The position numbers and the translations under genes are program-made. Shown piece after piece: positions 10,609 through 13,799 of a DNA stretch of 17,999 nt. This stretch comes from Hyphomonas sp. (lineage in GTDB: Bacteria; Pseudomonadota; Alphaproteobacteria; Caulobacterales; Hyphomonadaceae), in NCBI GenBank assembly GCA_024743015.1, contig JANSXJ010000028.1, positions 1-17,999 of the forward strand, in the 5' to 3' direction. A model generated the notes under the pieces. The model saw only the letters and a list, made by a program, of their open reading frames with translations. It searched no databases and was not told where the DNA came from. Every line of letters starts with the position of its first letter. Within the stretch, counting starts at the first letter, position 1.

Positions 10609-11517
10609 TCAGTCGGTGCCGGTCTGACCAAGGTCGAGGGACAATTGCTGCCCCTGTTCTGACCTGCCTCCAGCATGCGGGCTCGGGCCCGGCGTGGGCG
10701 CACGCCGTGTTCGCATATGGTAAAAGTTGGGCAAACCCCGAATGAGCTCGGTCACGCGCGCCGCACGAATATCCTGCCCAGCAGATAGATACTGGTTTCG
10801 CGCCGTAACAGCCGCTTGCCAGGTTTCCTTGATCGAGATGACCCCGAAATTCAGATAAGGGGCGAGTTGATCGAAATAGGCGTCCTGCACCAGAGTTTCG
10901 GACGCAGCGACCTGGCTGAGATCAGATACAGGCCCCAACAAGTGTTTCAGCAACTCGATCGCGGCTTTGCGTCCACCGCTCGGATGGCTGGTTGAGTCTT
11001 CCGACCGTGTCTGGGCGATCGGGCGATGACCAATACCGATTTGCGCGGCGGGAAGTTCGGCCGGGGCCTCATGCCGCGGCGTTGCCATGAACGCGTCCCA
11101 CGCTGCTGCTTGCGAGCCGCCCGGGCTCGGGGTCTGCTCGGGCCCAAACTGAGAGAAGGTTCGCAGCGCCACGCCGGCGCGCATACACCAGGCTTCAACT
11201 TGCGCATCGTATGGTTCCGGTACCACCGCCTCGTGCCTGTAGACGCTGAGAACATTCTCCGTCCGATGCAACTCGGACAGGACGGCAACCGGATCACCTG
11301 ATCGGAAATGCAAACTTGCGCCGCGCTGCTCCAGGGCTGCGTCGAGATCATTCAGGCTCTCGGTCAGAAATGAGCTGTGGGGCGCATCAGGCTCGGAAAT
11401 AAACAATGGCACAACGCGCCCGCCATCCCGCGCCGCCGCGAGACAGACGGCCCGCAAGGGCGCGTGATCGTGCACACGCAAATCGTTCCGAAACCAGAGA
11501 ATATGTACGCCACTCAT
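10609..11517 (-). CDS. Photolyase/cryptochrome family protein, truncated in the FAD domain
   Basis: The frame gives 302 residues from ATG 11517. The N-terminal antenna alpha/beta domain is recognisable (HILWFRNDLRVHDH; VVPLFISEPD; VYRHEAVVPEPYD). The start of the helical FAD domain follows (GGRKAAIELLKHLL; LAPYLNFGVISIKE), up to ELIRGLPNFYH, which aligns with the usual LxWREFYxH. There homology stops and a Pro/Gly tail (APTPGPSPHAGG) leads to TGA. Full-length photolyases have about 470 residues, so most of the FAD and substrate site is missing, and repair activity is unlikely without a partner. The HEETG motif of the class is changed to HEAVV. ATG 11535 is in frame but lies upstream of the -10, so 11517 was chosen; it has no ribosome site and would be leaderless. 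A LexA-type box covers the promoter. Confidence 0.75.
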   Translation of the reverse strand: MSGVHILWFRNDLRVHDHAPLRAVCLAAARDGGRVVPLFISEPDAPHSSFLTESLNDLDAALEQRGASLHFRSGDPVAVLSELHRTENVLSVYRHEAVVPEPYDAQVEAWCMRAGVALRTFSQFGPEQTPSPGGSQAAAWDAFMATPRHEAPAELPAAQIGIGHRPIAQTRSEDSTSHPSGGRKAAIELLKHLLGPVSDLSQVAASETLVQDAYFDQLAPYLNFGVISIKETWQAAVTARNQYLSAGQDIRAARVTELIRGLPNFYHMRTRRAPTPGPSPHAGGRSEQGQQLSLDLGQTGTD

Positions 11518-11518
11518 G

Positions 11519-11533
11519 GAACATATATAGAAC
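11519..11533. promoter_or_regulatory. LexA (SOS) box over the photolyase promoter
   Basis: The plus strand reads GAAC-ATATATA-GAAC (11519-11533); the minus strand reads GTTC-TATATAT-GTTC. This is a perfect match to the established alphaproteobacterial LexA operator GTTC-N7-GTTC. It covers the -10 (11524-11529) of the photolyase promoter and ends two bases from its ATG, where bound repressor would block polymerase. Confidence 0.72.
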
Positions 11534-11552
11534 ATCTAATCACATTTGTCCA
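11524..11552 (-). promoter_or_regulatory. Promoter of the truncated photolyase gene (probably leaderless)
   Basis: On the minus strand -35 TGGACA (11552-11547, 5/6) and -10 TATATA (11529-11524, 4/6) are 17 bp apart. Only 6 bases separate the -10 from ATG 11517, so transcription should begin at or next to the start codon, giving a leaderless mRNA. That fits the lack of a ribosome site. Confidence 0.55.
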
Positions 11553-11626
11553 CAGAGCAGCAAGTTGAGAAGAAAATTCAACCAGTAGATGCTTGCTCTC
11601 AGTCATCATGGATTCAATATTTATAT

Positions 11627-13126
11627 ATGCTCAAATATAATAACATTGAGTTCAATATATATTACCCACAATCGCCTCGTATAGAAAAATATAAGCCTTA
11701 TTTACTCAAACACTCCTATTGGTCTGGCACGCCAACGCCAGACCTTGCCGCGATCCTCCCTGCCCCACTCGAGTCTTGTTCTTTTCGCACCGGCATCCAT
11801 CCCCACCAGCAAGCGTTGCTTAACACCATCATTGCTGCAATTGGGGCGTTCGGAATCGTGCAACCTGTCCTGACCGCTCAGGCGCTGTCATGGTTGGCAC
11901 TCACCATGTTTAGCGCCCTGATTCTGTTTCGCCTCGTGCTTGTTCTAACCGGGTTGGGCCTGAGGCTTCTCCCCAGTCCGCCACTGATCGCGAGTGATAT
12001 TCCTGAGGATCTCCCGACCTATTCGATCCTGGTCGCCGCCTACAACGAAGCCGGAATGATGCGCCAGCTCGCAAGCGCCCTCAACGCCCTTTCATGGCCA
12101 GAGGACAGGCTGGAAGTGTTCCTGCTTCTGGAAGCGGACGACCCGGAGACGCTGCAAGCTGCGCAAGCAGCCGGATTTTCCGGGTCGACCCGGCTCATTA
12201 TCGTTCCCCCGGGAGGACCAAAAACCAAGCCGAACGCATTGAACCACGGTCTCGCTCTGGCGCGCGGAACCTATGTGACGGTCTATGATGTCGAGGACCT
12301 CCCCCATCCTGGCCAACTCCTGCAATCCTACACTCTGTTCGCGAACGCTGCAGAACACACGGTTTGCGTCCAGGCCCCTCTGGTTGCCGTCAATGACGGA
12401 TCAAACTGGATCGCGGCGCAATGGGCGCTTGAATATGACGTTCAGTTCGGATTGCTTCTGCCAAGTCTGTCGCTGCACGGCATGCCAATCCTGTTGGGTG
12501 GGACGAGCAACCATTTTCGGCGAAACGCCCTTCTTGCCGCTGGTGGATGGGATGCCTGGAATGTCACCGAAGATGCGGATCTGGGCATACGAATCGCCAG
12601 AGCCGGATTTACGACCAAAACCCTTACGGCGCCCACATTTGAATCTGCGCCGACGCAGTTTGGTGTTTGGTTAGCGCAACGTAGTCGCTGGTTGAAAGGC
12701 TATTTGCAAACCTGGTTGGTCCTGATGCGAGATCCCGCAGCCACGGTCCGCCAGATGGGGTTTGTTCGGTTCCTCGTCGCGCAGCTCACGCTGGGCGGCG
12801 CAATCCTTGCGCCGCTCGCGCATGCGCCATGCGCTGTTCTGGTCGCGCTGGCGCTCTGGTCCGACCCCCTCGAAATCGGCCGCGTGGGACTAGGACTTCT
12901 ATTTGCGGGCCTGGGTGTCGGGCTGCTCGGCGATCTGGTTGCACCGGGAAAATGGAGCTGGGCCCGTCTTCTGGCCGTTGTAACGCGTCCGCTCTACTGG
13001 CCGCTACATAGCCTCGCTGCATATCGCGCGCTTTGGGAGCTTGCGAACAAACCCTTTTTCTGGGCAAAGACGCCGCATCACCCTCATGATGTGGAGCCGC
13101 AATCATTCTACTCGACTGGATCATAA
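11627..13126 (+). CDS. Membrane family 2 glycosyltransferase (BcsA-like), 5' end uncertain
   Basis: Residue numbers here count from the open frame at TTG 11546. TM segments lie at about 90-110 and 115-138. A GT-A domain follows: YSILVAAYNEAG (159-170), LLLEADDPET, KPNALNHGLALARG, D248-V-E-D251 as the metal-binding region, TED (341-343) with the likely catalytic Asp, and Q378RSRW382, the QxxRW motif of processive enzymes. Further TMs span about 405-465. It probably adds sugars to an exopolysaccharide or envelope glycan from an NDP-sugar. No other synthesis genes are near. The start is unclear: ATG 11627 has no ribosome site, a perfect TATAAT (11636-11641) lies just after it, and the next in-frame start is TTG 11816. 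11581-11700 is 31% GC (37 of 120), unlike the rest, so the N-terminus may be truncated or replaced. Confidence 0.82.
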   Translation: MLKYNNIEFNIYYPQSPRIEKYKPYLLKHSYWSGTPTPDLAAILPAPLESCSFRTGIHPHQQALLNTIIAAIGAFGIVQPVLTAQALSWLALTMFSALILFRLVLVLTGLGLRLLPSPPLIASDIPEDLPTYSILVAAYNEAGMMRQLASALNALSWPEDRLEVFLLLEADDPETLQAAQAAGFSGSTRLIIVPPGGPKTKPNALNHGLALARGTYVTVYDVEDLPHPGQLLQSYTLFANAAEHTVCVQAPLVAVNDGSNWIAAQWALEYDVQFGLLLPSLSLHGMPILLGGTSNHFRRNALLAAGGWDAWNVTEDADLGIRIARAGFTTKTLTAPTFESAPTQFGVWLAQRSRWLKGYLQTWLVLMRDPAATVRQMGFVRFLVAQLTLGGAILAPLAHAPCAVLVALALWSDPLEIGRVGLGLLFAGLGVGLLGDLVAPGKWSWARLLAVVTRPLYWPLHSLAAYRALWELANKPFFWAKTPHHPHDVEPQSFYSTGS

Positions 13127-13338
13127 GCCTCAGCCTCGCGACGGGCCTGATTGTTCTGGGCGTTTTTGCGCAATCCAAGCTCGGCACCGTGCGCAAAAAG
13201 GATCAACGACCTCACCAGGTGCCATGGGGTCTGGTGATGATTGGCTGCGTGTTCGGCGTGTTCCTCGTCGTGGTCCACCTGATGAACCTGATCGGCGTGG
13301 AGACCGGCCCGGAAAACAGTATGTTTGGCCGGTTCTAG
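13105..13338 (+). CDS. Small two-TM membrane protein, probable ATT start
   Basis: This frame opens after TGA 13087-13089 and runs to TAG 13336-13338. It has no ATG, GTG or TTG before GTG 13189, which would remove the first membrane helix. ATT 13105 lies 8 bases after ggag (13093-13096) and gives 77 residues: hydrophobic helix 1 (about 2-22, LLDWIISLSLATGLIVLGVF), a basic hinge (KLGTVRKKDQRPHQ), helix 2 (about 40-62, PWGLVMIGCVFGVFLVVVHL), and a short tail. The two clean helices and positive loop argue for real coding. I know similar small alphaproteobacterial membrane proteins with a PW...HLxNLxG pattern, but no function. It overlaps the glycosyltransferase end by 22 bases and is probably co-translated. 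ATC 13102 or a CTG further on could be the start instead. Confidence 0.6.
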   Translation: MLLDWIISLSLATGLIVLGVFAQSKLGTVRKKDQRPHQVPWGLVMIGCVFGVFLVVVHLMNLIGVETGPENSMFGRF

Positions 13339-13354
13339 ACAACAAAACTGTCAC

Positions 13355-13382
13355 TTGACTCCAAACCGTTTGTTCGCATTAT
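13355..13382 (+). promoter_or_regulatory. Promoter of the NTF2-like gene
   Basis: -35 TTGACT (13355-13360, 5/6) and -10 CATTAT (13377-13382, 4/6) are 16 bp apart. Transcription would start near 13389, giving a leader of about 20 bases containing the strong ribosome site aaggagg (13397-13403). The -10 lies inside a LexA-type box. Confidence 0.6.
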
Positions 13383-13386
13383 GTTC
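13372..13386. promoter_or_regulatory. LexA (SOS) box over the NTF2-like gene promoter
   Basis: GTTC-GCATTAT-GTTC (13372-13386) is a perfect GTTC-N7-GTTC alphaproteobacterial LexA operator. It covers the whole -10 (13377-13382) of the promoter upstream of ATG 13410, the classic place for LexA repression. Confidence 0.72.
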
Positions 13387-13409: not shown

Positions 13410-13799
13410 ATGCCAACCCCACAAGAGCTTATGCAACTCGGACAGGCGCTGGTTGAACATTGCTCAAATCAGACCGAGCAGGCTTTGCAGGACAAATACT
13501 ATACGCAGGACGCTGTCTCGGTCGAAGCAGTTGCCATGCCCGATGGTAATGCCGAAGCCGTCGGTCTGGACGCCATCAAGGCCAAGAATGAATGGTGGTA
13601 TGGCGCGCATGAGCTGCACTCCAACAAAGTAGAAGGCCCTTTTGTTCATGGCGATGATCGGTTCAGCGTGATTTTCGATATCGATGTGACCCAGAAGGAA
13701 AGCGGTCAGCGCATGCAGATGCGCGAGATTGGGACCTATTACGTGAATCAGGACGGCAAGATCACCCGCGAAGAGTTCGCGTATCCCGTCGAAGGATAG
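13410..13799 (+). CDS. NTF2/SnoaL-like fold protein
   Basis: This 129-residue soluble protein is one complete NTF2-like domain: an N-terminal helix with a catalytic-pocket-type pattern (LVEHCSNQTEQALQDKYYTQDAVSVEA), the helix GLDAIKAKNEWW, then curved beta strands (GPFVHGDDRFSVIFDIDVT; MQMREIGTYYVNQDGKITREEF). SnoaL-like proteins act as small-molecule isomerases or hydrolases, or simply as binding domains, so the reaction cannot be read from the sequence. ATG 13410 follows an excellent aaggagg at 6 bases. Its promoter is overlaid by a LexA-type box, suggesting induction by DNA damage. It is not obviously co-transcribed with the acyl-CoA dehydrogenase 103 bp further on. Confidence 0.9.
   Translation: MPTPQELMQLGQALVEHCSNQTEQALQDKYYTQDAVSVEAVAMPDGNAEAVGLDAIKAKNEWWYGAHELHSNKVEGPFVHGDDRFSVIFDIDVTQKESGQRMQMREIGTYYVNQDGKITREEFAYPVEG

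Follow-up and report, generated by a model that had tools for sequence, protein, structure and literature searches.

Two operators of the LexA type in this stretch of DNA appear to place a pair of unusual genes under SOS control, one encoding a photolyase descendant that lacks the FAD-binding domain and is probably docked on the sliding clamp, the other a SnoaL-like protein of the NTF2 fold. We consider this the best explanation of the locus, and a likely one. The window, i.e., the whole stretch of 17,999 nucleotides that was analysed, is contig C86 of an assembly of 3.88 Mb in 585 contigs that is 87.5% complete, and its closest protein and locus matches carry the names Henriciella and Hyphomonas. 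The features under discussion are collected in Table 1.

Table 1. Features of the two boxed genes and of the region between them (positions in the window).
Feature	Positions	Strand	Remarks
Photolyase descendant, 302 aa	10609..11517	-	PF00875 only, no FAD domain
Codons of QLSLDL, candidate beta-clamp-binding peptide	10630..10647	-	Fits QLxLxL consensus
LexA box GTTCTATATATGTTC	11519..11533	-	Exact match; 1 nt before the photolyase-like ATG, over the putative -10
Putative -10 TATATA	11529-11524	-	Read from the sequence
Putative -35 TGGACA	11547..11552	-	Read from the sequence; 17 nt from TATATA
Glycosyltransferase family 2	11627..13126	+	Pfam Glyco_tranf_2_3; start uncertain (codon scoring), open frame back to 11546
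Small membrane protein	13102..13338	+	tblastn match in 12/20 fetched neighbourhoods
SnoaL-like promoter TTGACT-N16-CATTAT	13355..13382	+	Consensus promoter scan
LexA box GTTCGCATTATGTTC	13372..13386	+	Exact match; over the -10, 24-38 nt before the SnoaL-like ATG
SnoaL-like (NTF2-fold) protein, 129 aa, SnoaL_5 family	13410..13799	+	PF20409

An exact scan of both strands for GTTC-N7-GTTC returned the same two perfect boxes that the initial annotation had reported, and no third match in the window; the chance expectation given there, about 0.5 matches, likewise agrees with the computed mean of 0.55. The number by itself is not significant, since 22 of 200 dinucleotide shuffles reached at least two matches, and the whole genome holds 101 matches versus 107 for the reversed control pattern, i.e., no excess of the bare pattern. 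A proof of the boxes based on counts was dropped for these reasons. Once one duplicate was merged, the 101 matches gave 100 places, 63 of which lie inside coding frames and 37 outside according to a codon-scoring ORF caller; boxes with at least five A/T in the 7-base spacer fall outside coding frames in 20 of 29 cases, the others in 17 of 71. The shuffles, the parity with the control and the share of coding places are what would be said for chance matches or for binding of another regulator, a reading that we hold to be very improbable given that the position of the box is conserved across species and that the motif, which precedes DNA-repair genes here, is the published Caulobacter LexA motif GTTCN7GTTC (available part of PMC12700426). 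Position and conservation of the boxes, not their count, exceed chance. The alphaproteobacterial operator consensus on which the initial annotation relied is the one that marks repair genes in this genome. In the SOS response, DNA damage leads to RecA-stimulated cleavage of LexA, which frees the repressed genes. Conservation supports the view that both boxes serve as LexA operators overlapping the promoter core, and SOS control of the two boxed genes is, on these comparative grounds, highly probable.

Conservation of both boxes upstream of orthologues, the check proposed in the initial annotation, was read for each gene, and the refuting outcome named there, a lack of such conservation, did not occur. 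On the photolyase side, a match was listed in 65 of 101 genomes and 30 loci were fetched for box reading; a fragment of 54% identity, sited at the end of a contig in G049, is not among them. In 16 of these 30 loci, all of the same family, a perfect box is separated from the ATG downstream by 1-2 nt; the 14 loci without box comprise 10 that do not belong to the family and four that do, at 29-33% identity (L087, L088, L090 and L091), the latter being taken for putative paralogues. In a broader set, the best 80 of 428 relatives, a perfect box occurs no more than 160 nt upstream in 28 loci, and 24 of these show the same arrangement, with a gap between box and ATG of 1 nt (22 of 24) or 2 nt (2 of 24). 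The exceptions are L227 and three loci labelled Paracoccaceae (L236, L262 and L265). One boxed photolyase, in L193, stands on a contig labelled Candidatus Sulfopaludibacter (Acidobacteriota) and groups tightly with a Hyphomonadaceae record; the contig is probably mis-binned.

The SnoaL-like gene was matched in 39 of 101 genomes, and 30 of the 39 matches were fetched. Within 150 nt upstream, 23 of the 30 loci carry a perfect box, in seven cases inverted yet intact, four more have a one-mismatch box in the same place, and three (L040, L049 and L050) have none at this position. The box of L048 is identical to a Caulobacter box published in the available part of PMC12700426. In G047 and G058 (L105:8523 and L107:7583), the locus gave no match for the SnoaL gene, yet a perfect box lies between the glycosyltransferase gene and the first acyl-CoA dehydrogenase gene; perhaps it is a leftover operator.

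The claim that each box covers a -10 was examined for both genes. Upstream of the SnoaL-like gene, the promoter scan places the box over the -10, although the two promoters found in the region compare with a shuffle mean of 1.4 and this call is consequently not evidence by itself. The photolyase-side promoter is not listed by the consensus scan; its -10 comes from reading only and matches TATAAT at four of six positions, several relatives having TATATT (five of six). At the same spacing, the TTG of the -35 is found in 72, 84 and 80% of rows per column, among 25 rows that were selected for a perfect box and whose GTTC columns are 100% by construction. This putative promoter would place the A of the ATG (11517) at +1 and leave no space for a ribosome site, and the photolyase-like mRNA is probably leaderless, starting at its own start codon.

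The same motif precedes recN, rarA, comM, rmuC and mmcB in this genome. Pfam was run on 20 of the proteins from 34 box-gene pairs, and identified RecN, RarA/MgsA, ComM/YifB, RmuC and MmcB, as well as a PA0069-type radical SAM protein and a DNA polymerase III alpha-type protein. Several of these are SOS genes in other bacteria. The remainder of the 20 is mixed, with for instance an OmpH-like protein, an arginine deiminase, an AraC-type regulator and an acyltransferase, as would be the case if some matches arose by chance. At the edge of one contig (C249:57-245), a LexA domain is encoded without a readable promoter. A search for recA found none in the assembly, which is 87.5% complete, but all seven relatives searched have the gene. 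Perfect boxes at lexA and recA were looked for and are true only for lexA of G041: the lexA gene of 6/6 g1 relatives has two one-mismatch boxes, as does the region upstream of recA in the 7/7 relatives examined, whereas the pair is missing from a second LexA-type match in G028. Because shuffling of a 280-nt stretch yields a one-mismatch box in 21% of cases, it is the fixed positions at lexA and recA that carry the argument. Three other perfect boxes deserve mention. One of them, GTTCTATATACGTTC, lies at L003:1501-1515 (G000:C15:6833-6847) between divergent CBASS genes, 29 nt from the oligonucleotide cyclase and 58 nt from the 4TM effector, and this anti-phage defence is possibly SOS-controlled. 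The others may be chance: the box at L012:651-665 precedes a TacA1-like antitoxin gene by 94 nt, and the one at L154:1501-1515 precedes a T4SS DNA-transfer-type gene by 39 nt.

The gene initially called photolyase does not encode an intact one. Its product scores 80.6 bits against PF00875, the N-terminal photolyase domain (cut-off 26.6), and PF03441, the FAD-binding domain, is absent by Pfam from this protein and from two further short forms scanned. Since the FAD/catalytic domain is missing, no photoreactivation by the known mechanism is expected. The model (mean pLDDT 83.3, below 50 at residues 276-290) finds its best fold match in 4u63, a class III photolyase (Foldseek probability 1.00, TM 0.60 by query length). 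PF03441 is present in full-length relatives that occupy the same locus, and every genome with a short form (8/8) also encodes one or more longer photolyase-like frames (493-603 aa).

Comparison of relatives suggests that the FAD domain eroded stepwise, from intact to decayed to deleted, while the box and the tail motif described below persisted. The PF03441 score is 205-224 bits in L197, L199, L101 and L231, 177-178 in L209 and L216, 146 in L206 and L213, and 95 in G022. The C-domain was also scored at the 60 positions that reach at least 95% conservation among 70 reference sequences: 58-60 of them are kept by the intact relatives listed, 55 by L209, 52 by L216, 36 by L213, 33 by L206 and 25 by G022, whereas 22-31 of 31 conserved N-domain positions are kept in all relatives tested. 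The short forms make up one clade (support 100/99), sister to G022 under midpoint rooting, where long branches meet according to a warning of the program.

The 302-aa protein ends in a second element of interest, the hexapeptide QLSLDL at residues 291-296, after the low-confidence linker. In the available parts of the sources, the beta-clamp-binding motif is given as QLxLF or QLxLxL (PMC4564189), and its consensus as QL[S/D]LF, usually C-terminal (PMC3716654). The tails of 13 locus orthologues end near QLSLDL, QLSLIF, QLTLDF, QLSFDL, QLDLDF or QMRLGF, and two further ones have QLSLAL and QLSLGL. The pattern Q[LMIF]x[LF]x[LF], defined after the first tails were seen, occurs in the last 45 residues of 25 of the 29 short rows of alignment A1, or of 27 if a final I is allowed; P0147 and P0149 are without it. 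Six of the best 80 of 428 relatives were set aside (three without stop, one ending early at 389 aa, two judged aberrant), and 39 of the 74 remaining tails have the hexapeptide, against a mean of 0.19 and a maximum of 3 in 1000 shuffles, and against a single match in 713 windows from other parts of these proteins. None of the six excluded tails has it, giving also 39/80. All 23 relatives with both the box at the conserved position and a complete tail carry the hexapeptide, versus 16 of the 57 others. The rows are related, and this comparison, like those before it, makes them look more independent than they are. A search of seven genomes with the QLSLDL pattern returned no recognisable known clamp-binding protein, and hence no calibration of the motif. 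Judging from motif, position and conservation, docking of the tail on DnaN, the sliding clamp, is most likely.

What the short protein does is a matter of more tentative claims. One reading accepts the boxes as LexA operators and takes the short photolyase for a remnant being lost, with a tail devoid of clamp function; the stepwise decay of the FAD domain before its deletion, the failure to find a photolyase-like gene at the locus in G012 and G017 among the 20 neighbourhoods fetched, and the two short rows without tail motif all point that way. We nevertheless judge it improbable, since dN/dS is 0.09-0.18 in seven of eight pairs of short forms, with dS high and near saturation in most pairs and the eighth not computable, and since the clade keeps an exactly placed box together with the tail motif. 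On the basis of these substitution rates, the gene is under purifying selection. Our preferred reading, a maintained protein docked on the clamp, leaves room for a light-independent, clamp-linked role, which we put forward tentatively. Equally speculative, and somewhat short of an even chance in our estimation, is the history in which a clamp-docking photolyase lineage came under SOS control, lost photochemistry step by step, and is now a FAD-less clamp accessory in light-independent damage tolerance. If this were true, light-dependent relatives across Proteobacteria, many with the same tail motif, would share clamp docking.

The proposed sequence of events is as follows. LexA bound to both boxes would block transcription of both genes, and DNA damage, through RecA-stimulated cleavage of LexA, would free them. 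The minus-strand gene would then be transcribed from its own start codon as a leaderless message, yielding a photolyase descendant that keeps the N-terminal Rossmann-type domain, a flexible linker and the QLSLDL tail. With its tail docked on DnaN, the short protein would bring its N-terminal domain to the clamp, or compete for the clamp, during the SOS response, and most likely modulate repair or translesion traffic, while its longer photolyase relatives in the same genome would do the photorepair. The plus-strand gene would provide an SOS-induced NTF2-fold protein.

Each part of this scheme resembles a known system and departs from it. The operator is that of the Caulobacter LexA/SOS regulon as presented in the available part of PMC12700426, and the box lies over the promoter here too, but it stands here before genes for a FAD-less photolyase descendant and a SnoaL-like protein instead of repair enzymes of known function. 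The N-terminal photolyase domain is held in common with the class III CPD photolyase 4u63 and the photolyase/cryptochrome family, whose FAD/catalytic domain is missing from the 302-aa protein. The C-terminal QLSLDL after a low-confidence linker is like the motif of beta-clamp binders such as the E. coli polymerases (QLxLF or QLxLxL); the 302-aa protein is not a polymerase, and its binding to the clamp is predicted. SOS control of photolyase genes occurs in other bacteria, and that part is accordingly not claimed as new. Among the matches listed by word searches of the open-access literature, no title or abstract dealt with SOS control of a FAD-less photolyase, with a clamp-bound photolyase or with a SnoaL-type LexA target, and no paper combined SnoaL and LexA. 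Two candidate targets are added to the SOS regulon of Hyphomonadaceae. A photolyase that loses its enzyme domain while the LexA-boxed promoter and the clamp-type tail stay would separate a light-independent role from photorepair, and the presence of the tail motif in 39 of 74 photolyase tails makes recruitment of photolyases to the replication clamp a testable idea.

The second boxed gene encodes a protein that scores 51.5 bits against PF20409 (cut-off 24.1), that is modelled with an NTF2 fold (pLDDT 94.9), and whose alignment has 39 columns invariant in 27 rows. The closest solved structure, 3hk4 of Mesorhizobium, is of putative function (37-38% identity, TM 0.80-0.92 by Foldseek). Fold and SnoaL_5 membership are shared with 3hk4 and NTF2-fold enzymes, from which the gene described here differs by its place under a LexA box. 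The protein is probably a small-molecule enzyme or binder. PADLOC gave no match for it, nor for the photolyase-like protein or the glycosyltransferase.

A damage-inducible neighbourhood, as the initial annotation had envisaged, is retained for the two boxed genes, for which box conservation argues; nothing marks the two genes between the boxes as LexA targets. In 20 neighbourhoods, the recurrent order is, with losses, peroxiredoxin, phosphatase, photolyase-like protein, glycosyltransferase, SnoaL, two acyl-CoA dehydrogenases and GltS. Their 251,426 bases hold 29 boxes versus 7.7 expected, 25 at the two promoters and four elsewhere, in a set picked for holding one of the two boxed genes. A single damage-inducible unit, spanning the entire cluster between the boxes and around them, glycosyltransferase and small membrane protein included, would agree with the gene order kept in the family, and one LexA dimer could act both ways from the photolyase-side box, which precedes the scored glycosyltransferase start by 94 nt. 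We find this unlikely: the glycosyltransferase gene is without a box of its own, the nearby box overlaps the start of the divergent gene, and in G012 and G017 the glycosyltransferase is present without the photolyase-like gene. Support for LexA control is confined to the two boxed genes. In G026, about 3.6 kb separate two parts of the glycosyltransferase gene (L098, between 3590 and 7179), as if by an insertion. The frame of the small membrane protein is conserved and here has no ATG, GTG or TTG at its start. Codon 3 is ATG, GTG or TTG in eight of 12 relatives, and codon 2 is ATT, ATC or ATA in this genome and in four near relatives; the protein could begin at a rare AUU-type start.
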